Notes: a model not told the origin generated them from the sequence alone. A stretch of DNA of 64,000 nucleotides from Meiothermus luteus (GCF_003574085.1 NZ_QWKZ01000001.1:1-64000); one strand, 5' to 3'. Counted from the first letter of the stretch, positions 5,474 through 63,577 are shown. Translations and numbers: made by a program.

Positions 5474-5475
5474 AG

Positions 5476-11879: not shown

Positions 11880-11931
11880 GCTGGAGGAGGGGACTTTTAC
11901 AACAGTTTCTGAAATGGCATAGATTGAAAAG

Positions 11932-13033: not shown

Positions 13034-13044
13034 GGTATACCTTC

Positions 13045-13350: not shown

Positions 13351-13351
13351 T

Positions 13352-13879: not shown

Positions 13880-13906
13880 ACCAGGGGGCGGCAGGAGCCG
13901 CCCCCC
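13879..13906 (+). repeat. Intercistronic hairpin, copy 1 of 12
   Basis: AACCA followed by a perfect 9-bp stem GGGGGCGGC/GCCGCCCCC with loop AGGA, directly overlapping the stop of the SLOG gene and leading into the next small gene. Confidence 0.85.
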
Positions 13907-13916
13907 TCCGGTGGGC

Positions 13917-14132
13917 ATGAAAACGCTAGCGATCACCATCGGGGTCTTCAGGAATCAGGTCTATGCCTACCGGCTGCGCCAGGCCGAGGAGCGGGTGCGC
14001 CTCGAGCTCGGTCTCAAGGGGAGTGGGGGGTGGGACTGGCGGCCCTGGAAGGAAGGGGCGCTGGAAGAGATGCGGATGCTCTACCAGACGCTTCAAAGCT
14101 ACGACCGGGGGCGGTGGCTGAAGACGGAGTAG
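13917..14132 (+). CDS. Small hypothetical protein (71 aa)
   Basis: Not recognised. A basic, mostly helical 71-residue protein beginning 10 bases after hairpin copy 1; there is no clear Shine-Dalgarno, so expression may depend on coupling to the upstream gene. It is followed by the 13-bp inverted repeat at 14133-14183. Confidence 0.5.
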   Translation: MKTLAITIGVFRNQVYAYRLRQAEERVRLELGLKGSGGWDWRPWKEGALEEMRMLYQTLQSYDRGRWLKTE

Positions 14133-14183
14133 GGTTCTTGCCCCCCTTGTTGCTTTTGAGTGGGTAGCGAGGGGGCAAGAACC
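14133..14183. repeat. Inverted repeat GGTTCTTGCCCCC-N25-GGGGGCAAGAACC
   Basis: 13-bp perfect arms with a 25-base loop, no trailing T-run. The same CTTGCCCC/GGGGCAAG design, also with a 25-base loop, recurs at 18680-18726, and in weaker form inside the repeats at 45483 and 52753. A protein-binding or recombination site is as likely as a terminator. Confidence 0.65.
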
Positions 14184-22438: not shown

Positions 22439-23202
22439 ACCTTGCCCCTGTGCTCGAGGCCCTACGCTCCAAAGGGGGGCAAGAAGTGGCCCACGACCCC
22501 AGCCTACCCCCCTGCCCTTTGTGCGGCGCGGCGGCCCTGGCCGGGTACACCTTCGAGCGGCCCAGCCAGATCGAGCACGACTGCGACTGTGGCTACCTCG
22601 AGCCCGCCCAGTACCAGACCGCCTTGCTCGCCTCATGGCGGCTGTGGAAGGCCCCGCAGTTTTTGCGGGCTGATCTTGCGGGCTACCCCCGCTACCGGGA
22701 GTATCTGGAGCGCCCCCTGGAGGCCCACAGCGGCAACAAGGCCGCCATCGAAGCGGCCCGGCGCTACCAGGGGGGCTTGCTGTACCTCTACGGCCCGCCG
22801 GGGGTGGGCAAAACCCATCTGGCCCTCAGAATCGCGGCCCGGCTGGTGGCCGAAGGACGGTTCGTGCGTTTCAGGAGCGAACTCGACTTCCTGGCCGAGG
22901 AGCGGCTGGCAGCGGCGGGAGAGGGAACCTTGCCCCAGTATGAGCGCCTGGTGCTCGACGACGGGGGCAAGACAAGGCTCACCCCCTTCACCTTAGAACG
23001 CCTCTACGCCCTGGTGGAGCGCTCGAGCGCGGGCGGGTGCGACCTCATCATCACCTCCAACCTGTCCCCCGAAGCCTACGCCGCCCGGTTAGGCGAGGTG
23101 GGTGAGGCGGTGCTGTCGCGCATCCAGGGCGGGGTGGTGGTGGAAGTGCAGGGGCCAGACAGAAGGGCCAGGGGGCCTTCGGCCCCACCTGGTGGGGTAT
23201 GA
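22411..23202 (+). CDS. DnaC-like helicase loader ATPase
   Basis: A 263-residue AAA+ protein with an N-terminal Cys cluster ('CPLCG...CDCGY', about 30-62), Walker A GPPGVGKT (about 128-135), Walker B 'LVLDDGG' and sensor 'LIITSNL'. DnaC/DnaI/lambda-P-type loaders place the replicative helicase at an origin. GGAGGAG leader inside the initiator gene. The last codons encode hairpin copy 10, and the stop overlaps the next ATG (ATGA). Confidence 0.85.
   Translation: MDSDRRAVLNLAPVLEALRSKGGQEVAHDPSLPPCPLCGAAALAGYTFERPSQIEHDCDCGYLEPAQYQTALLASWRLWKAPQFLRADLAGYPRYREYLERPLEAHSGNKAAIEAARRYQGGLLYLYGPPGVGKTHLALRIAARLVAEGRFVRFRSELDFLAEERLAAAGEGTLPQYERLVLDDGGKTRLTPFTLERLYALVERSSAGGCDLIITSNLSPEAYAARLGEVGEAVLSRIQGGVVVEVQGPDRRARGPSAPPGGV
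23166..23190 (+). repeat. Intercistronic hairpin, copy 10 of 12, inside a coding end
   Basis: GCCAG, stem GGGGCC/GGCCCC with loop TTC, then ACCTGG. It lies within the last 13 codons of the helicase loader, so the motif is kept even where it must be translated. Confidence 0.75.
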
Positions 23203-29681: not shown

Positions 29682-32600
29682 ATGGCACATCCTTTGGAAC
29701 ACCTCGAGGGCTATCAGAAGTTCCGCGTGTTGCTGAGCGAGCTATTCCAGCTTGACCTGGCCGACCTTGATTTTGGCCTCTACCGGCTGCTGAAACAGCG
29801 CCGTAGAGCTATCGAGGACTACTTTGCCAAAGAACTACCTGAGCGCTTGTATAACCACATCCACGCCTTGAGCCAGCAGGCCAAAGCTGATCTCGAGGCT
29901 GAGCTCAAAGCAGCGACGGATAAGCTCAGGCAACTGACACCCAATGCCATCGAGCCTGACGGTACCCTGACCCCCATTGCCGATACCCTGGCCCAGGCCG
30001 GTGGGCAGATTGGTAACCTGATTGATCGGATTCGCCAGATTCGTAGCATCCTAGGCGAACAGGTACTCGCAGAGAACCAGGTCAACGACGTGCTCCTGCT
30101 CGTTCATGATTTTTTTCGCCGCTACTACGACGAGGGTGACTTCATCCCCCAGCCGCGCTTTTCTTACGGTGAGGGTTATGCCATTGAGTCATACGGGGAT
30201 CGCGGCTTAGCGCCGCTACCCCAGGACTTCCCCGGTGCGGTCTACCGTGGTGAGGATGTGTACTTCCACTGGCCTACCCGTGGGATGCACTATGCCAAGA
30301 GCGACACCTACCTGAAAAACTACAGCTTCAGGGTAGAAACCCAGGGCCTCGAGCCCCAAACCTTTACGGTGCAGTTCGTCCTGGCCCATGTAGAAGCCGT
30401 CAGGGATAACAACCGGGCTTCCCGCTACTTCTTCCCCAAGCCTGAGGTAAAGCTCGAGGGCCATACCCTGACCATCCCCTTTGACTACCGAAGCAAGAGG
30501 GAAGGCGACCCCGCCAATCAGGAGAAGATCCTCGAGGCCGCCCTACCCGCCGTGCTGGCCACCATCCCCGATCCCGACCTTCGGGCGGCCTTGGAGAACA
30601 CCGGCGACAACGGCAGGAACCTGCTTTACCGCCGGGCCCGCCACTATAGTGCCCTGGGCAGCAAGGACTTCTTCATCCACCCCCACCTCGAGGACTTCCT
30701 TCAGGCCGAGCTGGACTACTTTACCAAATCGCAGGCCCTGCGCCAGGCCGAGTTGGACGACGACCATGTGCTGCGTCGCCGCCTGGCCACCCTCAAAGCC
30801 TTCAGGGGGATCACCCAGGATCTGATCCGCTTCCTGGGCCAGCTCGAGCGCATCCAGACCCAGCTTTTCGAGAAAAAGCGTCTGGTCTACCGCACGGACT
30901 ACATCGTGCCTATTCGCCACATCCCCCAGAGCCTGTGGCCGGAGATTCTGGCAAACGAGGCGCAAATCCGGTACTGGCGGGACGAGATGGGCCTCGCCGA
31001 GATCAACCAGCAAATCCTTGAGACCCACCCCTCCCTGCCGGTCTTTACCGGCAACTTCAACCCCGGCTTTGCCCGGAAGCTGCTGGCGGCCCTGAGCGAG
31101 CACTGGGATCTGGACGAGGCTACTGACGGGGTCCTGGTACACGCGGAAAACTATGGCGCCCTCCGCACCCTGGAAGCCCGCTGGCGTGAGCAGGTCAAGG
31201 TGGTCTACATTGATCCCCCTTACAATACGAAGTCCTCGGAAATCCCCTATAAGAATGGCTTCAAGCACGCCACCTTCGCTACTCTCATCGAAGGACGAGT
31301 GCGCCCCGCTCGCGACTTCCTGAGAAAAGACGGGGTGATGCTGGTAAGCATTGACCTCGAGGAGCGCACTGTCTTAGAGCACGTGCTACAGGACACCTTT
31401 GGTCGTTGGAACCAGGTGGAAGAACTCATCTGGGCAATGAACACTACCAACAGCCAGGTACCCACTTACTCCACCAACCACGAGTACATTCTGGTCTGGG
31501 CGAAGCATTTGCCCACTGTGGCCGCTGATCCTAAGATGTTCCGCGAGCCCAAGCCCGGCTACGAGGAGGTAATGGCCCTCATCGAGGAACTCAACCCCAG
31601 CTATCCATCCCTGACTGAGGTGGAAAGGGCCCTGAAAGAGCTTTATGAGCAACATAAGGCCGAGTACCGCAGGCAGGTGGAAGCCCAGGGCCTCTCCTGG
31701 AAGGAGGAGAAGAAAAACGACCCCTGGAAGGGGATATACCCCTATAACCGGGCCGAGTACCGGGACGCCCAAGGCCGCCTGGTTCCCGAGGCGGAGGCAA
31801 AGGCTCGGGGGGCTAAGTTGTGGGTGTGGCGGGAGGATAATATTTCCATGCCTGCAGGAAAACAGTCTCCCAACACAAGGGATCCCAACAGTCCTAACTA
31901 CCGCTTCTACCAACCCCCTCATCCCATAACGGGCAAGCCCGTGCCCCACCCCAAGAGCGGCTGGAAATTCCCCTACGAGGCCAGGGATGAGGAGGAGGGC
32001 CGCTCCTTCAAAGAGCTGGACGCAGATGGGCGCATCGTCTGGGGCGAGGACGAGCGCAAGGTGCCCCAGATCAAGCGCTTTCTCCACGAGGTGGAGACCA
32101 ACGTGGGCAAGAGCGTCATCGTGGACTACAGCGACGGCGAGAAGGAGACCTCGGCCCTCTTCGGGCGCTCAGGGGTCTTCTTCGCCCCCAAGCCCACCAG
32201 CCTGATGGTGCGCCTGCTCCAGCAGACCACCTGGGGGAGGGACTGGGTGCTGGACTACTTCGGAGGCTCCGGCACCACCGCCCACGCGGTCATCCGGCTC
32301 AACCGGGAGGACGGAGGCCGACGCAGGTTCATCCTGGTAGAGATGGGCGACCACTTCGACAGCGTGGTGCTGCGGCGGGTGCAGAAGGTGATGTACGCGC
32401 CGGTATGGAAGGACGGCAAACCCAAACCGGAGCCCGTGGTGGGCGGCAAACTCCACCAGCCGAGTTTGGAGAGCGAGGGTGGGATGAGCCCCCTACCCCA
32501 GTGGATGGAACGCTCACCCCGCCTGGTCAAGGTGCTGCGCTTGGAGAGCTACGAGGACGCCCTGTTCAACCTACAAACCGAGCCTTCCCCGCGCGAGACA

Positions 32601-45482: not shown

Positions 45483-45607
45483 ATAAGGGAGATTATGCGA
45501 AATCTTGCCCCCGGTTGTTACCTTTGACCATTCAGTGTAGGGCAAGAAGCGACCGGAAACCCCTATAACTTCCTCGGAAAAGGAAGGATTTGTTGGGACT
45601 GTTGGGA
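45483..45607 (+). repeat. 125-bp repeat, copy A (partner at 52753-52877)
   Basis: About 93% identical to the copy at 52753-52877. It contains TCTTGCCC-N29-GGGCAAGA and ends in two 9-bp GTTGGGA units (45592-45598, 45601-45607). Both copies lie directly upstream of a rightward gene. Confidence 0.85.
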
Positions 45608-45877
45608 GTTTTAGGCGACGAGCTGACCCAGGTCACACGCGGGTTATACGGAAAGCGCAAGAACCTGCTGGCCTGGGCCTCCCTAACCGCTTTGAAGGAA
45701 GGGTTGGAGCGGGCAGTGCTGGAAGCCACGAACGAGGAGGCGGGCGACCGGAGGCTATACGCGACGGCCCGCGGCTTTGCCGACGAGCTTCTGCTAGAGA
45801 GGCCTAGCCGCCCGGAGGAACTGCTCCGGCTGCAGAGGGCGCTGGACAAAGCGATTGCGCGGGCTATGCGCCCCTGA
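45590..45877 (+). CDS. Small helical protein (95 aa), start within GTTGGGA repeats
   Basis: Not recognised. The frame opens at TTG codons inside the repeat, with AAGGAAGG just before; translation may start at 45590, 45593 or later. The product is all-helical with Leu/Arg/Glu bias. It is cut short of any operon by the IS982 element that starts 17 bases after its stop. Confidence 0.5.
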   Translation: MLGLLGVLGDELTQVTRGLYGKRKNLLAWASLTALKEGLERAVLEATNEEAGDRRLYATARGFADELLLERPSRPEELLRLQRALDKAIARAMRP

Positions 45878-51558: not shown

Positions 51559-52347
51559 CTACCGCCCCCGCTCGAGTTCGTACCCCTCTACCGCCTGGGA
51601 GCGCCCGTAGTCCCGTTCCGGGCCGCCCTTTTCCATGAAGCGCTGCACCTCTTCGCGGCTCACCCCAGCCTGCTCGGCCACCCGATCCAAAGCCCGCTCG
51701 AGCTGCTGCTCGGAGAAGACCCGGAAGGTCTCCACGCTGGGCTGACGTTCCATCATCATCTCGTAGTTGAGGCGCACCTTGGCAGCGCGCTCCTCCTCGG
51801 TCAGGTTGAACTGCACGCTCTGCACCCGCTCGGCCTCCGCGGCCAGGTAGAGCGGTACGGTACCGATGACTTCTTTGCCGCGCACGTCCTCGATGCGGGC
51901 CTGCTCCACCACCACCGCGTCCTGCGGTGCGTAACCGGCGTCCTTGAGATAGCGGGCGGTGTCCGGCTGGTTGGTCACCACCACCGGTTCGCCCTCACCC
52001 TTGCTGAAGTAACGCTCCGGCAGCGCCACCCCTAGGTCGCGCTCGATGCGTTCCATGCGGGCCTGGAAGTCCTCCTCCCGGTATACCCGGTAGACCTCCG
52101 TGCTGATCACCCGCTCACGCACCTCCTCCAGTGAGAGTTCGCGGCCAAAGTCCTCGCGGGAGAGGCGCAGGTTGACCGTGGTGACCGAGTTCGCTTCGGC
52201 GGCCAGATGGGGGGGGAGTACCCCCACCACGTCCCGCCCCTGAATCTCCTCGACGGAATGCACGTGCTTTTTTACCTCGTCCACCGCATATCCCTGCTCG
52301 CGCAGGTATTCCACCAGTCCTTGATGCTGAGTTACCACGGTAGCCAT
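51559..52347 (-). CDS. Protein with two Csx16-like domains (262 aa)
   Basis: Residues 1-90 ('VVTQHQGLVEYLREQGYAVD...HVHSVEEIQGRDVVGVLPPHLAAEA...FGRELS') and about 120-215 ('VVVTNQPDTARYLKDAGY...IEDVRGKEVIGTVPLYLAAEA') are two copies of the Csx16 (VVA1548) fold. Csx16 is found with type III CRISPR systems and is linked to cyclic-oligoadenylate degradation (ring nuclease). No CRISPR array or cas gene is in the window, so a role as an anti-CRISPR or standalone signalling enzyme is inference. A helical C-terminus follows. Start ATG 52347 begins domain 1. Confidence 0.62.
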   Translation of the reverse strand: MATVVTQHQGLVEYLREQGYAVDEVKKHVHSVEEIQGRDVVGVLPPHLAAEANSVTTVNLRLSREDFGRELSLEEVRERVISTEVYRVYREEDFQARMERIERDLGVALPERYFSKGEGEPVVVTNQPDTARYLKDAGYAPQDAVVVEQARIEDVRGKEVIGTVPLYLAAEAERVQSVQFNLTEEERAAKVRLNYEMMMERQPSVETFRVFSEQQLERALDRVAEQAGVSREEVQRFMEKGGPERDYGRSQAVEGYELERGR

Positions 52348-52353
52348 AGTTAT

Positions 52354-52735
52354 TTGACGCTCCCACGAATAAAGCCGGTGGGATTCTTGGTTCAACGAGG
52401 ACTGCCCACAGTGCGTAGGTTTTACACCCTCTCCCCAAGCGTGACTTCCCGTGTGCCCCACGGTAGTTTGGACGTTGATGCACGGCTTGGTTTTCGCCGC
52501 ACACGTCCGAGGTCTACGCTACAGGTTTTACCCGCCCAGCGCTTCGTGGACGGAACCCCATACCCCCGCCCCGCCAAGGCGGGGCGGCAAGAACCCCGGA
52601 AACTTTTGTTTCCAGGCGCAATTTTAGCACATCTGCCGCTCACCATGCTATGTGCCCCTGTGGGGCACCTAGGAGAGTCCTCGCCTCGCCACGGCGAGGC
52701 GACCATCCCCGAAGGGGATGGGTTTTATAGCTCCC
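52354..52735 (-). mobile_element. IS200/IS605-derived element without tnpA or tnpB (omega-RNA-like)
   Basis: On the minus strand: a left-end hairpin CCATCCCC-TTC-GGGGATGG (52721-52703), CGCCTCGCC/GGCGAGGCG (about 52701-52682), further GC hairpins, then a TnpB-C-terminus-like stretch ('GVKPTHCGQSSLNQESH') and right-end hairpin TCCCAC/GTGGGA (52383-52361) ending in GTCAA. This is the layout of the 3' omega-RNA end of an IS605 element with the genes deleted. It lies 7 bases upstream of the Csx16-like start. Confidence 0.55.
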
Positions 52736-52752: not shown

Positions 52753-52877
52753 ATAAGGGAGATGGTGCGAAATCTTGCCCCCGTTTGTCACCTTTGGTTA
52801 TTCAGTGTAGGGCAAGAAGCGACCGGAAACCCCTATAACTTCCTCGGAAAAGGAAGGGTTTGTTGGGAATGTTGGGA
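52753..52877 (+). repeat. 125-bp repeat, copy B (partner at 45483-45607)
   Basis: Contains TCTTGCCC-N29-GGGCAAGA and ends in two GTTGGGA units. About nine differences from copy A, clustered in the loop. Both carry the motif GCGAAATCTTGC, also found near 36980 beside the integrase. Confidence 0.85.
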
Positions 52878-52960
52878 ATTAAGTTCAGCAAAAAATAAGA
52901 ATTCCCAACAGGTTTATTGCGTCCTGGACAGCGCTGTTGGGACTGTTGGGACTGTTGGGA
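52862..52960. repeat. Six 9-bp GTTGGGA units upstream of the membrane-HTH gene
   Basis: Direct copies at 52862 and 52871, one inverted at 52903, and three direct at 52936, 52945 and 52954, always 9 bases apart within a run (unit GTTGGGAMT). The block from 52936 to about 52980 reappears inverted at about 63310-63346. Confidence 0.82.
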
Positions 52961-53024
52961 GTTTTAGCAATAGGCCCCTTGTGAGTTTCGGAAAGGCGTG
53001 AAAACGATAACGTGTTCCTCTTGC

Positions 53025-53039
53025 CATGTAATATGTTGC
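53025..53039. promoter_or_regulatory. CATGTAATATGTTGC box, shared with the CI/Cro-like switch
   Basis: 14 of 15 bases match 59602-59616 in the divergent repressor promoter. Immediately precedes ATG 53041. It may be an operator for the repressor, or simply a common extended -10 (TGTAATAT). Confidence 0.55.
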
Positions 53040-53040
53040 T

Positions 53041-53859
53041 ATGCGTTGGAACACAGTTCTGCTCTCCCTAATCGCGGCGCTGGCCCTGCCGGTGGTTGGA
53101 CTTGTTACGGGCCGGGTGGTGGGGGATTTCTTCCTCCGTGGAGATTTGATCGGTGTGGTGGGTGCTGGCTTCGGAGTTCTGGTGTACGCCCTGGCCCTGG
53201 CCTCCTCGTACTCGCACCTGCGCCACTACTACCAGGGCTATGAGGCCCGGGGGGTGCGGGCCTCGTGGGCGCTGGCCCTTGCGGTAGAGGTTGCGACCTT
53301 TTATATGAGCTTTGCCAATGTGGTCATTCACTCCCCCTGGGCTTTTTGGGGCAGCTTGATCGGGGCCTTCGTAGTCTTCTGGGGCAACTTCTCCAGCATG
53401 TATGAGGCCCGGACTGGGCGGCTTAGTGGAGAAACCACCGCACAGCCTGTTCGTGCGGAAGCAGCCCTGCACGGCGCATTCCCCGAGCAAACGCTGGCGT
53501 TTGTTTCCGCCGAGGCTGTGGAGACCCGGATTAGCCAGGTGAGGCAGGAAGTTCGGGCGGTGTCGAAACAGAGCTCTGGTGAGCCCTTACCGAGACAGAC
53601 CGTTTACGAGGAACACCCTGAGGTCAGGCCGGTGACCTTACCCACCCAGGAAGGGCACGAGGCTACCTCAGGGCAGGATTTCCCCCTATCCGCGGTTGAC
53701 CAGGAGGTGCTGCGCCTGGCGGCAGCAGGGCCGGTGGGCCCTTCGAGCGTCAGCCGGGCGCTTGGAATCGCCAAGAGTTCCGCCAGCGACAGGCTCCGGC
53801 GGCTGGAGCGGCTGGGGTTGCTGGTGAAGCAGGGCTCGAGTTATTTAGCCACCAAATAG
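53041..53859 (+). CDS. Membrane-anchored winged-helix protein (272 aa)
   Basis: Four transmembrane segments in residues 5-115, a flexible ~90-residue linker, then a winged helix at about 205-270 ('VDQEVLRLAAAGPVGPSSVSRALGIAKSSASDRLRRLERLGLLV', MarR/ArsR-like). It resembles DUF2637/Spd-type membrane proteins fused to an HTH and could regulate transfer or maintenance genes from the membrane. TAATAT sits 6 bases before the ATG, so the mRNA may be leaderless. The last 15 bases overlap the convergent helicase gene. Confidence 0.65.
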   Translation: MRWNTVLLSLIAALALPVVGLVTGRVVGDFFLRGDLIGVVGAGFGVLVYALALASSYSHLRHYYQGYEARGVRASWALALAVEVATFYMSFANVVIHSPWAFWGSLIGAFVVFWGNFSSMYEARTGRLSGETTAQPVRAEAALHGAFPEQTLAFVSAEAVETRISQVRQEVRAVSKQSSGEPLPRQTVYEEHPEVRPVTLPTQEGHEATSGQDFPLSAVDQEVLRLAAAGPVGPSSVSRALGIAKSSASDRLRRLERLGLLVKQGSSYLATK

Positions 53860-55428
53860 CCTCTTCCAGAATCGACCCAAAAGACCTGGGGTACGTGGAT
53901 CGGTCTTGCGCGCTTGCGCCTCAATCTCTGGTGTACAGAGCTGACGCTTGCCAGCTTTGAGCTCCCTGGCGAGATCTTTTTGTCGTTCAAGGGCCTCTGC
54001 GAAGGCCCCCTTGACCAGGGTATCGCGGGCGCGTGTGAAGGCCACATAGGTCAGGTTGGCCTCCTCTGGGTACAGCTTCACACACCGATGTGTGGGGTTC
54101 TCCTGGGCTAAGGTCACCCCCGTGAAGTCTTCTGCCAGAGTCACCCGATCCCACTCGCGGCCCTTGGAGCGGTGAGCGGTGGAGACCACCACCTCAGCAT
54201 GTTCCTCGTCCACCAAACTGTTGCGCAAGGTACGGCACACCTTGGGAATGCTGTCTTTGTACTCCTCGACAAGGCGCTCGTAGGGCCGGTACTGTGCGGC
54301 AATGGTGGGAAAGCGCTCAATGAGGTGCTTCAGTTGTTTCCAGCTGCTAAAGAGCGAGAACTCAGGGTGGCGGGGTTTCTGCCCCTGGTAAAGGCGGTAG
54401 GCGGCTTCCAGGGCATCGGTGAGCTCCTCAATCTTGTTCACCAGAGCTACTTTTTTGCCCTGCTCCAGCAGCGCCAGCACCTCCCGGAGCGCCCCGGCGT
54501 TGGTGCGGCTGAGGATGGCAGTAGATCCGTCCTGTTTCGGCTTGGGGTTGCCGCGCACCTGGCGCTCCTCCCCTTTGAAGAGGCGGAGCAGTTCGCTGGC
54601 CTCATCTGCAATGTGTTCCTTGAAGCGAAAAGACTGGGAGAGGAGGAGCTCCTGCCCGTCGAGGCGTTCCATGGCGTTCACCGCACCGCGCCAGGCGTAG
54701 ATCTGCTGGTGGGGGTCACCTACGAAGATGCGCTGTGCGGCCTGGGGCAGCAGGATGCCAAGCATCGCGGGGTTGGCATCCTGGGCCTCATCGAAGAGGA
54801 TCACGTCGTAGGGGAGCTGGGGGCGGGTGAGCTGGTAGAGCTTGAGGTAGACATCGTGGCTGACCGGATAGCTGGCCTCTGTGTCTGATAAAAGCTCCCA
54901 CGCCCGCTGGGCCAGGGGCACCAGGCAGGCCGCAAAGTCATCAAATCTCTTGCCTGCTGCCTCGATCTCCAGGCGTAGGATGTCAGGGATGTGTTCCGCT
55001 TTGACAGTTTCAGCCTCCGACTGGGTAAAGCGGTTCACGGTCTCAAGCACCGGGAACAGGGCCTCTTCCCGGTCGCGGAAGCCCCACTCCCGAAGGTCAT
55101 CGAGGCCGGGCATGTCCTCAGCCAGCAGGCGGCGGGCCTGGAAGAGACTTCCCCTCAAGCGATTCTTCTCATCAAACGGCTTGCCCGTCTTCTGGTAGGC
55201 TAGGGCGTGGTTGGTCATCGCGTCGGCCAGGTCGCCGAACTTCTCCTTAGCCTCTTCTGCCAGAGCCTTGCTAAACGTCAGGTAGAGGATGCGCTTGCCT
55301 GCCAGCGCTTTGGCGACTTCTACCAGGGTGAAAGTCTTGCCCGCCCCGGCGAAGGCCACCACCTTGAGATGATTACCAGTCTTTGCGGCTTCCACGACCG
55401 CTTTTTGTTCATCCGTTAGCGTTGCCAT
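53845..55428 (-). CDS. UvrD/Rep-like SF1 helicase
   Basis: A 527-residue helicase. Walker A 'AFAGAGKTFTLVEVA' (about 28), DEAQD box 'VILFDEAQDANPAM' (about 215), motif III 'GDPHQQIYAWRGA', motif IV 'SQSFRF', motif V 'VSTAHRSKGREWDRV' and motif VI 'YVAFTRARDTL' are intact. Shorter than UvrD, with reduced 1B/2B domains, like F-box-helicase or phage-type SF1 enzymes. It may aid plasmid replication or repair. Start ATG 55428 is set back-to-back with the nuclease gene. Confidence 0.87.
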   Translation of the reverse strand: MATLTDEQKAVVEAAKTGNHLKVVAFAGAGKTFTLVEVAKALAGKRILYLTFSKALAEEAKEKFGDLADAMTNHALAYQKTGKPFDEKNRLRGSLFQARRLLAEDMPGLDDLREWGFRDREEALFPVLETVNRFTQSEAETVKAEHIPDILRLEIEAAGKRFDDFAACLVPLAQRAWELLSDTEASYPVSHDVYLKLYQLTRPQLPYDVILFDEAQDANPAMLGILLPQAAQRIFVGDPHQQIYAWRGAVNAMERLDGQELLLSQSFRFKEHIADEASELLRLFKGEERQVRGNPKPKQDGSTAILSRTNAGALREVLALLEQGKKVALVNKIEELTDALEAAYRLYQGQKPRHPEFSLFSSWKQLKHLIERFPTIAAQYRPYERLVEEYKDSIPKVCRTLRNSLVDEEHAEVVVSTAHRSKGREWDRVTLAEDFTGVTLAQENPTHRCVKLYPEEANLTYVAFTRARDTLVKGAFAEALERQKDLARELKAGKRQLCTPEIEAQARKTDPRTPGLLGRFWKRLFGG

Positions 55429-55446
55429 TGATTAGGATTATCTATC

Positions 55447-56085
55447 ATGTTACGACTTTTTGTTGCTCTTTTGACCCTGCTGAGCCTGGCCCAGGCTCAG
55501 CAGACCCTAACAGGTCGTGCCAGCGTGATAGACGGGGACACCCTGGAGGTGCAGGGTGTTCGCATCCGGCTGTGGGGCATAGACGCGGTGGAGTCCTCAC
55601 AAACCTGCCTGGACGCTTCGGGGAAGGCCTGGCCGTGTGGACGCCGCGCCGCTTTCGCCCTGGCGGATTTCCTAGGGCAGCGCACCGTGCGTTGCGAGCG
55701 GCGGGACACCGACCGCTACGGACGGATGGTGGCGGTGTGCTACGTGGGTGGAATAGAGATCAACCGCTGGCTGGTGGAACAGGGCTGGGCCCTCGCTTAC
55801 GTCAGGTACGGAGGGAGTGTCTACCTTGACGCCCAGCGCCAGGCCCAGGCTCTGAAACGGGGCATCTGGCAAGGGCGTTTCACACCGCCCTGGGAGTACC
55901 GCCGCAACCCGGCTAACCCGCCCAGCGCCGGAGCGCCAAGAAGTCCAGCTACCCCACCAAGCAGCGTTTACTATCGCAGCTGCGCCGAGGCCCGAGCTGC
56001 CGGAGCCGCGCCCCTCTACCGGGGCCAGCCGGGGTACCGCCCAGGACTGGATCGGGATGGGGACGGGGTGGCCTGTGAGCGCTGA
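55447..56085 (+). CDS. Secreted thermonuclease (SNase) with Excalibur domain
   Basis: A 212-residue protein: signal peptide of about 17 residues ('LLTLLSLAQA'), SNase domain with 'VIDGDTLEVQGVRIRLWGIDAVE' and 'TDRYGRMVAVCYVGG' (catalytic Arg/Glu/Arg set), and a C-terminal Excalibur calcium-binding motif 'DRDGDGVACE'. It would degrade extracellular DNA or RNA. Divergent from the helicase gene with only 18 bases between starts. Confidence 0.9.
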   Translation: MLRLFVALLTLLSLAQAQQTLTGRASVIDGDTLEVQGVRIRLWGIDAVESSQTCLDASGKAWPCGRRAAFALADFLGQRTVRCERRDTDRYGRMVAVCYVGGIEINRWLVEQGWALAYVRYGGSVYLDAQRQAQALKRGIWQGRFTPPWEYRRNPANPPSAGAPRSPATPPSSVYYRSCAEARAAGAAPLYRGQPGYRPGLDRDGDGVACER

Positions 56086-56101
56086 GGCGCGGCCCCCGGC
56101 G

Positions 56102-56854
56102 TCAGAGGGCAACCCGGCAGTGCCGCACCAGCTCCCGCCGCAGCCTACCCACCAAGACCCCCAGCTCCCGCAGGGCTTCGAGCAACTCCTCGCGGGTGTC
56201 GGCTTCTGTCCAGTCCGTGCGCCAGCCCATTGCCTCGAGTTCCTCTTCCGAGGTTTCCAGCTGTACCCTCAGGTAGAACAGCCTTGAAAGTACCCTCTGG
56301 GTGCAGCGGGCGATGTCCTCGCTCACCGTAGCCGGCCACTCCCCCCGGCTGCTTTCCAGGAAGGTGCTCAGCGTCCCTAGCCACCTGGCTGCCTCGTCCA
56401 ACTGCGCCGAGCCACCCCGAAGAAAGCGGTGGCACTCCCGCAGACGGTCTCTGGCTTCGATCAGCTGCTGGGCTATCTTCTGCCAGCGTCCGCTAAGGCG
56501 CTCCTCCAGGCTTTCCAGCAGGCTGGATGTTGGCGACAGACCGAAATCAAGTTCCTCCAGGGCTTCGTTGCGCAGGCTGGCCAGGACGGCTTTGGCATAG
56601 GCGGCCTCGAAGAGCTCGGGCGGGCGGTATCCAGCCCGGCTTAGCCCGGCCAACTCGGCCAGGCTGAAGCAGGCGTACAGGAACCACCGCAGCCCCTTCC
56701 AGGCCTCCAGCTGGGCTCCAGTGACAAGCTGGGGGTCGGCCTGCGGCCATCGCTTGACCAGCTCCAGGGAAACCCGCTCTACCGGCTCCCTCAGCAGCTC
56801 GGCAGCCTCGCTCAGGGTGAAGCGCTGTGCGCGCCTGGCCTCCAGCAGTTCCAT
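56102..56854 (-). CDS. Hypothetical helical protein (250 aa)
   Basis: Not recognised. Start ATG 56854; an HTH-like N-terminus ('FTLSEAAELLREPVERVSLELV', about 12-33) and a long helical remainder with Leu/Glu/Arg bias. It lies 26 bases downstream of the recombinase gene and probably belongs to the same leftward operon as the repressor and recombinase. Confidence 0.55.
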   Translation of the reverse strand: MELLEARRAQRFTLSEAAELLREPVERVSLELVKRWPQADPQLVTGAQLEAWKGLRWFLYACFSLAELAGLSRAGYRPPELFEAAYAKAVLASLRNEALEELDFGLSPTSSLLESLEERLSGRWQKIAQQLIEARDRLRECHRFLRGGSAQLDEAARWLGTLSTFLESSRGEWPATVSEDIARCTQRVLSRLFYLRVQLETSEEELEAMGWRTDWTEADTREELLEALRELGVLVGRLRRELVRHCRVAL

Positions 56855-56880
56855 AGATAAGCTCCTCGCACGTACCAAGG

Positions 56881-58884
56881 CTAGCAGGCTCCTGGACTGG
56901 AATCCAGCTCGCCTGCCGAAACCAGCGCCTCCACCTCCGCCCACACCCCCTGGCTGACCCAGTTCTGATAGTGCCAGTAGACCATCTTCCCCGGCGGGTA
57001 GCTGGACGGCAGGCTCTTCCAGGGCCGCCCCTCCCGCAGCACCAGGAAGATGGCCTCCACGAGGGAGCGCCTGGCGTAGCGGGGTGGGGCTCCTCTGGCT
57101 TGGGGTTCAAACAGCGGCTCCAACCGCTGCCACAGCGCATCGGGGAGGGGATACGGGTAGCGGGGGTCAGGCTCCCGTTTCGGACGAACACGCTTCCCAT
57201 ACACCCACCTCCAGGCTGTCCCGTTGCTCACCCCATACTTCCGGGCCAGGCTGCGGGCGCTGGCCCCTGTCCGGCGGTGCTCCTCAATCAGGGCAACCCG
57301 AACTTCTCCTTTCCCCGACGGCCCCGGCTTCTTGCGAGGAAGAAAGTAGGTCAAGTTACCTTGAATACCCCGATTGCCCTGCACACGCCTGCCCGTGTGA
57401 GGTGCAATCTGCCCAAACCTGTAACGCACCTCTATCTCAACCTCTCCCTCACCTGGCCTTACCGTCACCTTCTCCACCAGTTCCCTTGCTACCGCCTGCT
57501 TCTCTTCCGGGGTAAGGCGATCTATCCGGTCGCGTAGTCGGGCCGAGAGACTCTCCAGGGAGTGGAGGGCTTCCTTACGCTGACGCTCGGCGATGGAGCG
57601 CTCCCGCGCTGCCTCCAAGCTCGCCTGCACTTCTTGTATACGGGCTTCCAGATCCTCGATGCGGGCGTAGTAGGTCTGTTTATCTATACCTCCTTCAAGG
57701 AAGAGGTCTAGCAGACGTGCGCGGGCTTCGATGAGGGCCTGCAGGCGTTTTTCCAGCAAGGAGACCTCATTCCTTTCCGGGGATTCCTCATTCACAAAAG
57801 CCTGCAAAGCCTCACCAGGGTTCAGAAGGAAGGTGCGGATGTCCTGCCAGATGCTCTCCTCAAGCTCTGCCCGGCGCACATGAGGAGCGGTACAGCGCAT
57901 GGAGGGGATGGGAGAAGCCTGGCGGTTCACACGCCCCACACAGGCGTAATAGTCGCTTGAGCCCACATATGCCCGCCCGCAGACTCCGCAGCGTATGAGC
58001 CCTTTGAGCAGGTACACGCTGCGGGCGTTACGCGCGGCGAACAGGGCGTTTCGGGCTAGCTGCTCCTGGGCAGCCTGGAAAAGCGCGGGTTCTACCAGGG
58101 GCGGTACCGCTACCGGCACCAGATCGGGCTGAGGCTTGCGGGTGCGCTTGCCGTAGGTGTACTCCCCGATATACGTGCGGTTCTTGAGGATGCGCAGCAC
58201 CCCGCCTCCCCGCCAGACCCCGGCGGTGCGTCTGCCCCGCACCCCGCGCCCCTCACGCCGGTACTTGGGAGGTACGCCCAGGCGGTTGAGCTCCTGGGCA
58301 ACCCGCTCGGTGCTCCAGCCCCGTTCAGCAACCCAGGTAAATATCTGCCGCACCACCGCTCCCTCCTCGGGCTGGGGCGTCAGGCGACCGTCCTCAACGG
58401 TGTAGCCGTAGGGCACGATACCTCCCAGATACCGACCGCTCTGTGCGGCTTTGCGAAGGCCCAGTCGGCTGCGTTCGGCGAAGGTGTCCCGCTCCCACTC
58501 GGCGAAGACCGCCATGATTCCCAGCACCGCCTTACCGATGGAGGTGGTGGTGTTGATATTCGGCTCGGAGTAGCTCATGAGGCCCACGCCACACTGCTCC
58601 AACCGCTCGATGAGGTCGTAGGCTAGACGCACCTTGCGGGCCAGCCGATCCAGCCGGTAGACCAGCACCACCGCAAAACGTCCCTCCTGTGCGTCCGCGA
58701 GCAGGCGGGTCAGGGCAGGGCGATCCTCCTGGGCTCCTGAGTAGCCAGGGTCGGTGTAGGTGGCCGCTACCTCATACCCCAGTACCTCAGCCCAGCGCGT
58801 GAGCACCTCCTTCTGAGCCTCGAGGGAGTAGCGCTCAACCTGCTCCTCGGTGGATACCCGGGTATATATAGCGCACTGCCTCAT
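56881..58884 (-). CDS. Large serine recombinase fused to an IS5 OrfA-like (DUF4096) domain
   Basis: A 667-residue protein. Resolvase domain 1-150 (catalytic Ser in 'YTRVSTEEQ', 'YRLDRLARK'), recombinase domain to about 270, zinc ribbon 'CGVCGRAYVGSSDYYAC' (about 305), coiled coil 365-445. Beyond the usual end at ~510 residues are an HTH ('TGASARSLARKYGVSNGTAWRWV') and about 95 residues matching the IS5-type OrfA N-terminus ('YPLPDALWQRLEPLFEP', 'RRSLVEAIFLVLREGRPWKSLP'). The fusion is unusual. Start overlaps the repressor stop (ATGA). Confidence 0.85.
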   Translation of the reverse strand: MRQCAIYTRVSTEEQVERYSLEAQKEVLTRWAEVLGYEVAATYTDPGYSGAQEDRPALTRLLADAQEGRFAVVLVYRLDRLARKVRLAYDLIERLEQCGVGLMSYSEPNINTTTSIGKAVLGIMAVFAEWERDTFAERSRLGLRKAAQSGRYLGGIVPYGYTVEDGRLTPQPEEGAVVRQIFTWVAERGWSTERVAQELNRLGVPPKYRREGRGVRGRRTAGVWRGGGVLRILKNRTYIGEYTYGKRTRKPQPDLVPVAVPPLVEPALFQAAQEQLARNALFAARNARSVYLLKGLIRCGVCGRAYVGSSDYYACVGRVNRQASPIPSMRCTAPHVRRAELEESIWQDIRTFLLNPGEALQAFVNEESPERNEVSLLEKRLQALIEARARLLDLFLEGGIDKQTYYARIEDLEARIQEVQASLEAARERSIAERQRKEALHSLESLSARLRDRIDRLTPEEKQAVARELVEKVTVRPGEGEVEIEVRYRFGQIAPHTGRRVQGNRGIQGNLTYFLPRKKPGPSGKGEVRVALIEEHRRTGASARSLARKYGVSNGTAWRWVYGKRVRPKREPDPRYPYPLPDALWQRLEPLFEPQARGAPPRYARRSLVEAIFLVLREGRPWKSLPSSYPPGKMVYWHYQNWVSQGVWAEVEALVSAGELDSSPGAC

Positions 58885-59585
58885 GGCCGGCGGAACTCCC
58901 CATGAACGATGCCCACCGGAACATACGCGGCCTTCCGGCCCGCAGGTGTCTGGAGTGAGCCGTCGGGCAGAAGCCAGAAGGTTGCCCCGGTGCCCCCGAC
59001 CGGACGTACCAGACTGGCCTCGGAGGGGAGGCGGAAAATCAGGGGGCGGCGGATTTCCTCGACAAAGCCGAGCAGGGTAACGCCCCGTTCCAGAGCCGCT
59101 CTGCGTTCGACCACCAGTACAGAGCCCTCGCTAAGCTGCAACTCCTCTGAGCGCAGCGCCTCCCGCTCCAGCAAGGCCAGAAAGAAGCTGGTGTAGCCCG
59201 GGCGGGTTGGAAGCAGGCGGGTGTCCAGGTAGCTTCTGCTGGGCGCTTCCTCCCCCACGCAAGCGGGGGCCAGGGCAGGGTAGTAGGGTATGGCGACAAC
59301 GCCAGGGGCAGAGGGTGCAAACTCTTCTGCTGCGCCCTCGCCGAGCAGCACTTCAATCGAGGGCAGGTGCAGGGTGCGCAGCAGAGCCTGTAAACGCCCC
59401 ACGCTCATGTCGCGAATGTCGTGGGCTCCTCGCTCGAGCTTGGCAACAAGGGAAGGGGAAACTCCGGCGGCCAGGGCCAGGCCTTCGCGGGAATAACCCA
59501 GTTTCTCACGCCGGGCCTGCAGAAGTCGGGCCCACTGGGGTGTGTGGATTTCTGTGGGGGCTGTACGGAAACTTTTCTTAGGCAT
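58881..59585 (-). CDS. CI-like Xre repressor (234 aa)
   Basis: N-terminal HTH at about 18-62 ('LQARREKLGYSREGLALAAGVSPSLVAKLERG') and a C-terminal S24-like beta domain in which the catalytic Ser/Lys pair is not obvious. It is divergent from a Cro-like gene across 62 bases of AT-rich palindromic DNA and precedes the recombinase gene with an ATGA overlap, so it probably controls excision or transfer. Confidence 0.78.
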   Translation of the reverse strand: MPKKSFRTAPTEIHTPQWARLLQARREKLGYSREGLALAAGVSPSLVAKLERGAHDIRDMSVGRLQALLRTLHLPSIEVLLGEGAAEEFAPSAPGVVAIPYYPALAPACVGEEAPSRSYLDTRLLPTRPGYTSFFLALLEREALRSEELQLSEGSVLVVERRAALERGVTLLGFVEEIRRPLIFRLPSEASLVRPVGGTGATFWLLPDGSLQTPAGRKAAYVPVGIVHGEFRRP

Positions 59586-59596
59586 ATACAGTAGTT

Positions 59597-59638
59597 TATT
59601 ACATGTAATATATTGCTAGCAGGTTAGTAATATGTTAC
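59597..59638. promoter_or_regulatory. Operator region of the divergent CI/Cro-like pair
   Basis: Perfect palindrome TATTACATGTAATA (59597-59610) and near-palindrome GTAATATGTTAC (59627-59638) in the AT-rich gap. TAATAT at 59628 could be the -10 of the rightward gene. Confidence 0.65.
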
Positions 59639-59647
59639 CATGCTGGC

Positions 59648-59902
59648 ATGGGCCAACCCAACATCATCCGTCGGCTGCGGCTGCGTGCTGGTTTGAGCCA
59701 GGAGTCGCTGGCAATGGGAGCTGGTATTACGTTGTCGCTACTGACCAAGTACGAGCAAGGCAGGATACGGCGGCCCTCGCTGGTTTGCAGTCACAAGCTG
59801 GCGAGGGTGCTGGCGTCGCGGCTGGGCGTTAGCGAGGAGAGGCTGCTGTTACAGATCGCGGAGGGGTTCGAGTGCCACCTAGACCACGACGTGTCCGATT
59901 AG
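59648..59902 (+). CDS. Cro-like Xre regulator (84 aa)
   Basis: Single HTH domain ('IIRRLRLRAGLSQESLAMGAGITLSLLTKYEQGRIRRPSL', residues 5-45). First gene of the rightward primase-helicase operon; expected to oppose the CI-like repressor. Starts about 20 bases after TAATAT, with essentially no Shine-Dalgarno. Confidence 0.78.
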   Translation: MGQPNIIRRLRLRAGLSQESLAMGAGITLSLLTKYEQGRIRRPSLVCSHKLARVLASRLGVSEERLLLQIAEGFECHLDHDVSD

Positions 59903-59977
59903 TGCGTCAGTACAGCGAAAACGAAGATTTCTCATCATTCGTCCGGCGAGCGCTGGAAATCGTGCTAGCGTCAGTAG

Positions 59978-60424
59978 ATGACCAGGGTGCGCAGGGCGCA
60001 CCACGACTTGATGCAAATGGAGAGAGATTTGTTCTTGCTGACACCCCGCCACAAGCGCCTGGCGGTGAGCCTCCCGGCGGGCAGAATCGCAGAGCTGCTG
60101 CGCTCTGCCCAGGAGATGCGGACGTTACTGCCGAACACGAAGCCCCTGCCGGAGATCGCCTTCGATCTGGAAGGGATGGGGATCACGGTACACCCGCTGT
60201 CCCTGCTCCCTGATGCACTCCAGGAAGTGCTGGAGATGGCCGGCAGGGCCCGCTTTGCCTGTCAGGCTTTGGGCATGGAAATGGGCGGGCGGCTCCTGGT
60301 GTCTGTGGGGCTGGCCTGGCTCGAGGTGCAGGTCTGGCGCGGAGAAAGCCTGGAGGTGCTCGTCCACGAGCTGGAGGAGGTGGAAGATGAGGGACATCCT
60401 GACGTGCTCTATCGAAAAGATTGA
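59978..60424 (+). CDS. Hypothetical protein (148 aa)
   Basis: Not recognised. Helical N-terminus and mixed C-terminus rich in Glu/Leu/Val; 'LEEVEDEGHPDVLYRKD' tail. It overlaps the primase gene by 38 bases, so it is probably co-translated with it and may be a replication accessory. Confidence 0.55.
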   Translation: MTRVRRAHHDLMQMERDLFLLTPRHKRLAVSLPAGRIAELLRSAQEMRTLLPNTKPLPEIAFDLEGMGITVHPLSLLPDALQEVLEMAGRARFACQALGMEMGGRLLVSVGLAWLEVQVWRGESLEVLVHELEEVEDEGHPDVLYRKD

Positions 60425-61328
60425 CCTGCCTGCACTGGTGTGCGAACTCTGGCCGGAGGCCGGGGCCAGGCCGGGGCGAGCCGGGGTATGCCGGGCGGTG
60501 TGGCGAGGGGATACCCACCCCTCGCTTTCTTTGTTCAGGGCTCGTGGTATCTGGTTCTGGAAGGACCACGCCACCGGGGAGGGCGGCAACGCCTTCCACC
60601 TGTTGCTCCGGGCTGGAATGAGCAAGGAGGCGGCAGCAGAAATCATCAAAAGCAGGGCCGAAGTGTCCCCGCCAGAGGCTCGATATTTCCGCCAGCGAAG
60701 CATATCCACAGCGCCTTCCCCTTCCGTGGGCCTGACCCCGTGTGAGCAGCGGGCCCTGGCAGCAGCCCAGCAGCGTCTTGACGAGGCGGCCATAGCGGGG
60801 CGGGGGATCACCCTCGAGCAGGCCCGGCGGGTGGGGTTGGGGAAGAGCCGCCAGGGTGACCTGGTGATTCCCATTTTGGGGCCCACGGGCGAGGTGCAGG
60901 CCATCAAGGCCCGGCTCAAAAATCCCCAGGACTTCCGCTACCGCTACCTCACCCCAGGCCGGGGTGCACCGGCCTGGTTCTCTCCTGGTTTCGCCCGGTG
61001 GCCTGAGCGGCCTGTCATTGTCATGGAGGGCGAACTCAACGCCATCACGAGCTGGTTTGCCCTCAAAGGACAGGCCGACCTGGTGGGGCTGCCCGGGGTG
61101 GAGGGGGCCGTACCCTGGAACTACCTCAAAGGGCGGCGGGTCTACCTCTACGCCGATGAGGATGAGGGTGGACGCAACGCTGTGCGGCGCTGGTGTGAGG
61201 AGGGCGGGGGTGAGAAAGTTGCGATTTTTGTCTTAGCGTCGCTTGGAGGTGGTATGGACGCTTGCGAGTACGCCGCACGGTGGGGGCAGCCTGCCCTGGC
61301 CGAGCGGCTGATGGAGTTGACGGGCTAA
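60387..61328 (+). CDS. TOPRIM primase-like protein
   Basis: A 313-residue protein. ATG 60387 has GGAGGAGGTGG upstream. The N-terminus resembles the CHC2/DnaG entry region ('RGDTHPSLSLF...DHATGEGGNAFHLL') with reduced Cys; the TOPRIM has 'VIVMEGELNAITSWF' and 'VYLYADEDEGGRNAVRRW' (Glu, DxD). It would lay down primers at the element's origin for the helicase that follows. Confidence 0.8.
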   Translation: MRDILTCSIEKIDLPALVCELWPEAGARPGRAGVCRAVWRGDTHPSLSLFRARGIWFWKDHATGEGGNAFHLLLRAGMSKEAAAEIIKSRAEVSPPEARYFRQRSISTAPSPSVGLTPCEQRALAAAQQRLDEAAIAGRGITLEQARRVGLGKSRQGDLVIPILGPTGEVQAIKARLKNPQDFRYRYLTPGRGAPAWFSPGFARWPERPVIVMEGELNAITSWFALKGQADLVGLPGVEGAVPWNYLKGRRVYLYADEDEGGRNAVRRWCEEGGGEKVAIFVLASLGGGMDACEYAARWGQPALAERLMELTG

Positions 61329-61364
61329 AAAAATCACCCCACCTGGCGGGGTGGGATGAAAAAA
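61327..61364. terminator. Bidirectional terminator between primase and helicase
   Basis: A-rich run, CACCCC-ACCTGGC-GGGGTG stem (61335-61353), then GGGATG and a run of seven A; works as a T-tailed hairpin on the minus strand. It overlaps the ATG at 61356, which is one reason to prefer the TTG start at 61377. Confidence 0.55.
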
Positions 61365-61376
61365 AGGAGGTTCTCC

Positions 61377-63305
61377 TTGCAACAAACAATATATCAAGAA
61401 CTGACCAGTGAGGAAATCCTACCGGGCTACCCCCGCTACCGCGTGCATCAGGGCCGTATCGAGATGGCGCGGCTGGAGGGCCGGGGGGAGCACCAGACCG
61501 TCAGGTACGTGCCGCTGTCTAATTTCGCCTGCCTCATCCGCCGCGAGGTGCGGCGCACGGACGGGGTGCAGGACGAGCTGCTGTTTGAGATTGAGGGCCA
61601 GGGCGCAGACGGCCCCCTCCCACGGGTGCGGGTGCGCTCGAGTGAGTTTGCGGCCATGAACTGGCCCATCCGGGAGTGGGGAGCCCGAGCTATCGTGGCC
61701 CCCGGCCAGAGCAACCGCGACCACCTGCGGGCGGCCATCCAGCACTTGAGCGATCCAGAGCAGACCACGGTCTACGCCCATACCGGCTGGATACGGAGGG
61801 GGACGGAGTGGGTCTATCTGCACGCCGGTGGCGGGATAGGGCCGGGCGGGAGCGTGGGGGGCCTCGAGGTTGACCTGCCCCCGGAGCTCGCGGGCTTTGC
61901 CCTGCCCCAGCCCCCTGAGGGGAAGGCGGAGCTTGCGGCCCTGCAAACCCTGGTGGGTCTGCTCGAGGTGGCCCCCCGTCGGGTTACCTGGCCGCTGCTG
62001 CTGTATGCCCTGGGTGCGGTGATTGAGCACCCGATGGGTAGCCTCTACCTGGCCGGACACACCGGGGCCCGGAAGACTAGCGTCTCCATGCTGGTGCAGG
62101 CCTTGTGGGGGCACACCCAGCCCCACCCGCCCACCAACTGGGAGGGGACGGCCAACGCGCTGGAAGCCTTGGCGTTTGCAGCCAAGGACGCGCTCTTGCT
62201 GGTGGACGACTACGCCCCTACCGGGCATGAGGGCAAGCAGAAAGAGTTGCAGGCCAAGGCCTCGCGAATCCTCCGCAACCAGGGCAACGGGGTGGGGCGG
62301 GCCCGGATGCGCTCCGATGGCACCATGCAGCCGGAGCGGGCCCCCAGGGGCAGCCTGCTCATCACCGGGGAGGATTTACCCCCAGGCCACAGCGTCAGGG
62401 CACGCTGTTTGGTGCTGGAACTGATCCCCGGAGAAGTAAATCTTGAGGCGCTCAGCCGGATGCAGCGGGAGGTGCATCGCCTGTCCCTGGCCTTGAGCGC
62501 CTGGGTGCGCTGGCTGGCGGGGCGGCTGGAGGGGGTACGCAAACAGGTGCGGCTACGCGCTGCCGAGCGTCGTTCCGCTTACCCTGCCGAGCACGGGCGC
62601 ACCACCGATGCGGTGGCCCGGCTTCATGCGGTGTGGGAGGTGGTGCGGGCGTACTGGACGGAGATCGGTCTCATAGATGAGGCCCAGGCTGCCGCCCTGG
62701 AGAGCGAGATAACCGGGGTGTTGCAGGCCGTGGCCGGGATGCAGGCGGGCTACCAGCAGGACGCTGACCCGACCCAGCGGTTCATCCCGCTGTTGTTGGG
62801 GCTGTTCAGCAGCCGCCGGGCCCACCTGGGCAACCGGCTATACGCCGAGGAGCCCCCACTGGACGCCGAGCGGTGGGGCTGGTTGTGGCAGCCCACCGCA
62901 AACGTGTGGGCTCCACAAGGGCCGCAGGTGGGATGGGTGGACGAGCAGGGGATTTACCTCGAGCCCACCACCGCCTACGCCGCCCTCAACCGCCTAGCGA
63001 TGGAGAGCGGGGAGCCCCTGCCCACGCCCCGCACCCTGTGGAAGCGATTGGGCGAGCGCGGCCTGATCCGCTCGCAGGAGCGGGGTGGCCGGGTGCGCTA
63101 TGGGGTGGGGGTGCGGATACAGGGCGTGACCCGCGACGTGTTGCACATCCCAGGGGGTATCCTCGCTAACAGTCCCAACAGTCCCAACACGGCGAATAAC
63201 AACGTCCCTGACGAGGAAAAACCCGTTGGGAAAAATCAGCCTGTTGGGAGTAATTTTTCTCCCAACAGTCCCTCGGAAGAAGCGGGCTATGAGGTACAGG
63301 TCTGA
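61377..63305 (+). CDS. DUF927-type replicative helicase/ATPase
   Basis: A 642-residue protein with a central ATPase: Walker A 'GHTGARKTSVSMLV' (about 226) and Walker B 'DALLLVDDYAP', the DUF927 pattern seen in phage and plasmid primase-helicase sets. TTG 61377 is 7 bases after AAGGAGG; ATG 61356 is possible but lies in the terminator. The last ~45 residues ('SPNSPNTANNN', 'PVGKNQPVGSNFSPNSPSE') are low-complexity because the DNA carries 9-bp GTTGGGA units. Confidence 0.78.
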   Translation: MQQTIYQELTSEEILPGYPRYRVHQGRIEMARLEGRGEHQTVRYVPLSNFACLIRREVRRTDGVQDELLFEIEGQGADGPLPRVRVRSSEFAAMNWPIREWGARAIVAPGQSNRDHLRAAIQHLSDPEQTTVYAHTGWIRRGTEWVYLHAGGGIGPGGSVGGLEVDLPPELAGFALPQPPEGKAELAALQTLVGLLEVAPRRVTWPLLLYALGAVIEHPMGSLYLAGHTGARKTSVSMLVQALWGHTQPHPPTNWEGTANALEALAFAAKDALLLVDDYAPTGHEGKQKELQAKASRILRNQGNGVGRARMRSDGTMQPERAPRGSLLITGEDLPPGHSVRARCLVLELIPGEVNLEALSRMQREVHRLSLALSAWVRWLAGRLEGVRKQVRLRAAERRSAYPAEHGRTTDAVARLHAVWEVVRAYWTEIGLIDEAQAAALESEITGVLQAVAGMQAGYQQDADPTQRFIPLLLGLFSSRRAHLGNRLYAEEPPLDAERWGWLWQPTANVWAPQGPQVGWVDEQGIYLEPTTAYAALNRLAMESGEPLPTPRTLWKRLGERGLIRSQERGGRVRYGVGVRIQGVTRDVLHIPGGILANSPNSPNTANNNVPDEEKPVGKNQPVGSNFSPNSPSEEAGYEVQV

Positions 63306-63577
63306 TATATGAGCCCCCTATTGCTAGGACTCCCAACAGTCCCAACAAATTGCGTTTCTTGTGTGCAGGACAGCACAATAAGCGTTGGGAAAAGCGGCTT
63401 TTGGAGGGGTCAAAACGGCAATTTTGTCCCAACGGGCAGAAATGCCGTTCAAAACGAGGCAAACTGCTTTTGCTGTGATTCCCTTCACAAGTGTTGGGAG
63501 TTTGGGGGGATAATGAAAACGTGTGTCCAGGACGGGAAAGATGAGGTTAGGGAACCCGGCTGTTGGGAATGTTGGGA
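63173..63577. repeat. Eleven GTTGGGA units: candidate iteron region
   Basis: Units at 63173, 63182, 63260, 63331 and 63340 (inverted) and 63225, 63243, 63384, 63493, 63562 and 63571 (direct). Pairs are exactly 9 bases apart. Units 63243/63260 form a hairpin. The stretch continues from the helicase 3' end through the 289-base gap 63306-63594, which has no gene. Confidence 0.8.

Follow-up and report, generated by a model that had tools for sequence, protein, structure and literature searches.

A putative iteron origin beside the DUF927 helicase gene of an integrative and conjugative element in Meiothermus luteus

Introduction

Where could a mobile element that encodes its own helicase begin to replicate? 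The Rep helicases of the Staphylococcus aureus pathogenicity islands (SaPIs) use a C-terminal domain to recognise an iteron origin that directly follows their own gene (PMC7581432). In satellites of Vibrio cholerae, the initiator and the origin covary under origin-directed nuclease attack, and elements exchange replicon modules with one another (PMC8263062). Here, we analyse the first 64 kb of contig C1 (94,983 bp) of Meiothermus luteus, hereafter the window, to whose first base all positions refer unless another contig is named. An earlier note, made from this sequence alone, had drawn attention to its clustered 9-bp repeats, whose units contain GTTGGGA (F or R according to orientation). The window belongs to an integrative and conjugative element (ICE), and its largest repeat cluster, termed B, lies at the 3' end of a gene for a DUF927 helicase, called Rep below. 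Judged from sequence comparison and a structural model, B is very probably the replication origin of the excised circular ICE, with iterons read by the winged helix of Rep and with residue 585 helping to set the unit.

The nearest described arrangement is the pri-rep-ori module of SaPIs and other phage-inducible chromosomal islands (PICIs), exemplified by SaPIbov1 Rep (8tch). Both share the helicase fold, a C-terminal DNA-binding domain, an iteron origin at or directly after the rep 3' end, opposed iteron sets and probably an upstream primase gene. However, the carrier here is a conjugative element of ~95 kb with a serine recombinase and a type IV secretion system (T4SS) rather than a phage satellite, and the 95-kb circle has, instead of the PICI gene set, a large serine recombinase together with VirB2 and VirB4. 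The origins differ as well, since compact forms with ten units, a ~218-bp dyad and a constant palindrome occur here, a clear AT-rich block does not, and the array lies partly or wholly in coding sequence. B is therefore most likely of the known SaPI/SCC Rep-ori kind in a new setting, namely a conjugative element with a variable unit code, whereas a 2018 paper on PICIs calls such an organisation unique to phage satellites.

Other systems resemble B in part. The staphylococcal cassette chromosome mec (SCCmec) pairs Cch (DUF927, 5dgk) with Ccr serine recombinases, and the ICE recombinase also matches Ccr profiles, below their cut-offs; but the M. luteus element inserts in comM, and the comparison with Cch covers the helicase. 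For SCC elements, no T4SS is known. The RepA/Odn system of the V. cholerae element PLE likewise has swapped modules and an initiator DNA-binding domain that covaries with the origin, but its initiator is of the RepA_N type with ~30-bp semi-palindromic iterons, whereas the Thermales layout is constant with one candidate residue. ICETh2 of Thermus, a mobile element of the same order, also has primase and helicase genes (the Ppol-Hel pair), although it is only 11 kb long and uses a tyrosine recombinase and a tRNA site. The paper describing it noted Meiothermus fusions of Prim-Pol with DUF927; a term search of its text turned up neither iterons nor a replication origin (PMC7693054). A classical iteron plasmid (Rep_3/RepA/pi/TrfA) was considered and rejected, since the adjoining initiator is a DUF927 helicase and no Rep_3 match occurs among the scanned open reading frames (ORFs).

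Architecture of the putative origin

Cluster B (63173-63577) is composed of 12 units in three half-modules. The first left half-module (63173-63266, RR-palindrome-F-F-R) lies within the helicase coding sequence, the second (63331-63433, RR-palindrome-F-R) lies beyond the stop codon at 63303-63305, and the right one (63493-63577) reads F-palindrome-FF. As the earlier note had stated, the units cross out of the coding region: the first five precede the stop codon and the rest follow it. The palindromes are GTCCCTGAC at 63204-63212, GTGCAGGAC at 63363-63371, a variant of a constant core that is enriched throughout the family, and GTCCAGGAC at 63525-63533.

An array with a 9-bp period on both strands occupies the same place by the helicase 3' end in 12 Thermales homologues, with the layout kept. 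The unit is GTTGGGA in close relatives, GTAGGGA in the genome G002, and GTTCCCGG, GTTACCGG or GTTCCCACT in others. The compact form is a dyad of ~218 bp built from ten units and two GTCCAGGAC palindromes, in the order RR-palindrome-F-F-R, then F-R-R-palindrome-FF. The positions in the compact Thermales origins (R0 R9 core32 F53 F71 R85 / F125 R138 R156 core176 F200 F209) agree within 1-2 bp, the outer pairs being ~200 bp apart in most of them and the dyad symmetric to ~1 bp; B in the window corresponds to two left half-modules and one right half-module. When the units at the ten fixed slots were compared in six elements, identity was 97% within an element and 65% between classes. On this sequence comparison, the copies within an element change in concert, and what is conserved in B is the architecture, not the sequence.

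The pattern extends to several phyla. An automatic test for a 6-mer repeated in 9-bp tandem on each of the two strands beside the helicase 3' end was passed by 20 of 27 homologous loci, but by only 1 of the 406 control segments and by none of the 5400 shuffles. No period from 7 to 14 other than 9 scores more than 2 in this test on the 27 loci. The suggestion of the earlier note that selection acts on the DNA is thus well supported, because the layout persists despite concerted sequence change, the array runs across the stop codon, and its coding part specifies a helicase tail that is predicted to be disordered. The Thermales arrays are also candidate origins for Thermus and Meiothermus vectors.

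The Rep helicase and the choice of unit

Rep (61356-63305, plus strand) is a helicase of the DUF927 / SaPIbov1-Rep / Cch-like kind with an MCM-like AAA+ fold, identified by PF06048 and by its predicted structure. The AlphaFold2 model (pLDDT, predicted local distance difference test, 82.5; below 50 in the tail, residues 608-649) matches, over residues 26-608, SaPIbov1 Rep (8tch) with Z 22.1 and SCCmec Cch (5dgk) with Z 20.4, followed by MCM helicases at Z ~13. Since a PDB sequence search with Rep gave no match, Rep is linked to this family through Pfam DUF927 and the fold comparison. In a viral_contigs scan, the single Rep protein had 0 matches and the Rep alignment found one distant locus, while phage records yielded just two distant, unannotated matches; these nearly empty searches indicate little phage link. 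Upstream of rep, the ORF at 60213-61328 (plus strand) encodes a probable Toprim-type primase, whose true start is probably internal; its Toprim-like motifs were recognised by eye, it has no Pfam match, and it is kept in relatives. Two relatives carry a fused Prim-Pol domain.

In the model, the C-terminal domain (residues 537-604, encoded at 62964-63167) consists of two helices and then strands, that is, a winged helix, and residue 585 (codon 63108-63110) falls in the wing strand 584-588. Among 13 helicases aligned over 567 columns and compared with their units, residue 585 is the only column perfectly associated with unit class: Gly accompanies GTTGGGA, Ala GTAGGGA, Arg the GTTCCC units and Val GTTACCGG. 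The second-best column, residue 592, is in the same winged-helix domain. On a tree made without the Rep C-terminus, the GTTACC class emerges three times, each time with Val at 585. Free relabelling of the unit classes produced a perfect column in 0 of 2000 trials, and where the GTTCCC and GTTACC labels alone were shuffled, all perfect cases were the observed labelling.

The link between residue 585 and the unit is a correlation, not proof, and the reader of the iterons is probably the C-terminal winged helix of Rep itself, as far as alignment and model can tell. The binders proposed in the earlier note (a membrane protein with a helix-turn-helix (HTH), the Cro/CI-like proteins or a 95-aa protein) are less likely than Rep. 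Such natural matched origin-initiator sets, in which one residue appears to set specificity, open the evolution of self-loading helicase targeting to study with point mutants. They also hint at how co-resident elements stay compatible, since G002 and G008 each have two such elements with different units.

The element and its circular form

The two ends of contig C1 are identical over 127 bp, which gives a circle of 94,856 bp. Over most of its length, the contig shares its gene order with inserts in four genomes, G008 (91.6 kb), G016, G003 and G001. In relatives the ICE lies within comM; the insert in G008 splits this gene, and its junction corresponds to the attP core at 57385-57397, at the 3' end of the gene for a large serine recombinase (56881-58884, minus strand, profile match). 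The terminal 127 bp of another contig, C186, are exactly the right end of the element, with a crossover base that differs from that of C1, and C186 continues into the 3' half of comM; attR (C186) and attP (C1) thus coexist in the M. luteus assembly, as read from these junctions. A tandem integrated array could be an alternative source of attP and attR together. T4SS genes follow downstream (PF04956 TrbC/VirB2 and a VirB4/TraC-like ATPase). Because of the circular form with attP, the insertion in comM and the T4SS genes, the sequence identifies the element as an ICE of ~95 kb, of which C1 is the circular form. The idea of the earlier note, plasmid iterons beside a primase-helicase operon, was essentially right about the iterons, whose layout is conserved, but what carries them is the circular form of an ICE and not a plain plasmid.

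In the scheme that we propose, the ICE would excise as a circle and B would serve as its replication origin. Rep would bind the 9-bp iterons through its C-terminal winged helix, where residue 585 in the wing would help to choose the unit, and two facing half-modules, each RR-palindrome-F-F-R, may load one helicase ring apiece in a head-to-head arrangement. Replication in both directions would then be started by the primase that the element encodes. A host factor would probably bind the constant GTCCAGGAC palindrome, and site A, a single half-module elsewhere on the circle, may act as a Rep-binding control site.

The replication module has been swapped in G001 (G001:C1:490500-493100), where, on the same ICE backbone, a D5_N-type helicase and ATGTAGG repeats replace the DUF927 helicase and the GTTGGGA origin. 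The recombinase ORF passes through attP and, at 56881-57390, reaches an IS5-type transposase remnant, so that the recombinase C-terminus would change upon integration. A search of the M. luteus genome (G000) for an empty comM site, in which candidates were not all scored, recovered only 3' halves, of which there are four (C162, C186), each adjoining an ICE-like right end. In this genome, comM thus looks like a landing site used more than once, by several islands.

Other units in the window and a CRISPR spacer

GTTGGGA occurs 23 times in the window on both strands, whereas dinucleotide shuffles (n=100) averaged 9.2 copies and never exceeded 16. Three clusters with 19 units had been reported: the counts at 45592-45607 (2) and 52862-52960 (6) stand, but 63173-63577 holds 12 units, not 11, and the total is 20. 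The exact 9-bp spacing inside runs is correct, and 18-bp spacing occurs too. The ~45-bp block said to recur in inverted form is real as an inverted copy, yet best seen as 31 bp with 93.5% identity (52944-52974 versus 63347-63317). The occurrences outside the clusters are at 31868, 31883 and 63657. The first two form an inverted pair (31868-31889) inside an N6/N4 methylase gene; they are 15 bp apart rather than 9, and were rejected as part of the array as probably due to chance.

The cluster at 45592-45607 does contain two units but is not an independent one, because the sequence 45483-45610 is 92% identical to 52753-52880 (128 bp) and then jumps to the end of the cluster at 52862-52960 (24/24). 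By this alignment, the segment 45483-45614 is a copy of that cluster plus the left flank, from which an internal part has been deleted.

The tandem GTTGGGANNGTTGGGA is found 8 times in the whole genome, 7 times in the window stretch and once in a spacer of clustered regularly interspaced short palindromic repeats (CRISPR) on contig C165, while its reversed control pattern is found 0 times. The frequency check suggested in the earlier note thus places the tandem unit outside the element in one CRISPR spacer only. This spacer, GAGCTGTTGGGAATGTTGGGAGTGTGTTGGGA (G000:C165:15208-15239, in a type I-E-like array), corresponds to three GTTGGGA units, and 21 consecutive bases of it match site A of G001, G003 and G015. 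The M. luteus host lineage has therefore probably met GTTGGGA elements.

The constant palindrome

The palindrome CGTCCAGGACG with A-tracts is enriched and found at the putative origins of several initiator families in Thermales. In 50 family genomes, GTSCWGGACGNNNNAAA occurs 156 times against 22 for the reversed control. Copies of it also lie close to the D5-type origin of G001, at an array of repeats that follows a DUF3987 initiator in G028, and, in G024 and G036, on contigs carrying a PF03090 Replicase, a family match that was obtained on G036. The simplest explanation of this distribution is that a host factor common to many Thermales replicons probably binds the constant palindrome, which would make it a candidate host-factor site at Thermales replicons.

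A wider and quite tentative picture may be drawn. The Thermales origin layout would be fixed, the iteron code would switch via one wing residue, and origin-directed immunity together with incompatibility would keep the codes diverse, while the CGTCCAGGACG palindrome at the origins of four unrelated initiator types would act across the lineage as a host-factor site in the replication of plasmids and ICEs.

Site A and alternative explanations

Site A (52862-52960), a half-module on its own with the order FF ... R-palindrome-FFF, lies upstream of the gene for a membrane protein with a C-terminal HTH (53041-53859, plus strand, found by sequence scan), and was aligned in 7 elements. Its order and spacing match those of a single B half-module. 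It is intact in G008, G016, G003, G001 and G015. Where B has changed to GTAGGGA, in G002, the units of A are still GTTGGGA, although units and palindrome bases have been lost; in G006, A is reduced to two units. Such decay fits a Rep-dependent site once Rep specificity changes. Elements with GTTCCCGG or GTTACCGG have no second clusters of their units (GTTCCCACT was not searched), with one lone site in G029, so that A seems specific to the ICE family studied here. Our best guess, at about even odds, is that A is a control site for titration, handcuffing or regulation of the membrane-HTH gene. The incompatibility role proposed in the earlier note is a reasonable guess for this cluster, as is copy control, but not for the other clusters.

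Could A and B instead be operator arrays for a regulator of the element (the CI-like 234-aa, the Cro-like 84-aa or the membrane-HTH protein), controlling the membrane-HTH gene and the genes that follow rep? Every element having the membrane-HTH gene has A upstream of it, B precedes a conserved gene cluster, and A is intact in G001 despite the replaced DUF927 Rep. However, the array accompanies the helicase rather than the regulators across elements and phyla, and the unit class follows the helicase winged-helix residue. No arrays were found upstream of the membrane-HTH homologues in Thermus, which argues against the membrane-HTH protein as a general binder. We therefore regard operators as unlikely.

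A role of B as an origin of transfer (oriT), or as some other relaxase or conjugation site, is very unlikely. The element does carry T4SS genes and lacks a clear known vegetative origin, but no relaxase was found beside B, the only sign of one being a sub-threshold Replic_Relax match 5 kb off; moreover, in many elements and phyla the array accompanies a replicative helicase, with or without conjugation genes nearby, and its dyad is laid out like an origin and not like a nick site. Partition sites, also raised in the earlier note, are extremely unlikely: direct and inverted short repeats can be centromeres, for example the heptad arrays read by ribbon-helix-helix proteins, but nothing here supports such a role, none of the ORFs scanned (part of the total) has a ParA/ParB-type match, and the arrays are attached to a helicase gene whose winged helix tracks the unit.

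Several observations weigh against B as an origin read by Rep. The both-strand 9-bp test was failed by 7 of the 27 homologous loci, and in 30-bp bins no distinct AT-rich block separates the opposed half-modules, unlike in PICI origins. The minimum of the cumulative GC skew of the circle, at 59.2 kb, is near B, but it coincides with a flip in gene orientation, so that the skew supports B only weakly. The covariation at residue 585 comes from a small sample of 13 sequences with few independent changes. A is intact in G001 although that ICE has a D5-type helicase instead of Rep, which a recent swap would explain. Finally, the Ppol of the Ppol-helicase pair in ICETh2 is dispensable for replication of that element (PMC7693054).

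Other features of the element

The ICE also encodes a beta-clamp-like protein (20503-21510, plus strand) and a DnaC/IstB-like ATPase (22411-23202, plus strand), both identified by profile match, as well as a Rad52-family protein. The first 14 kb of the window (1-14136) are 99% identical in G008, G016 and G001, the last from another genus, whereas most other ICE DNA is ~70-86% identical; by these identities, the segment would be recently exchanged cargo. A HEARO RNA (RF02033) at 1425-1659 scores above the gathering threshold, and a cargo protein at 51559-52461 contains a Cas_VVA1548 (CRISPR-associated) domain.

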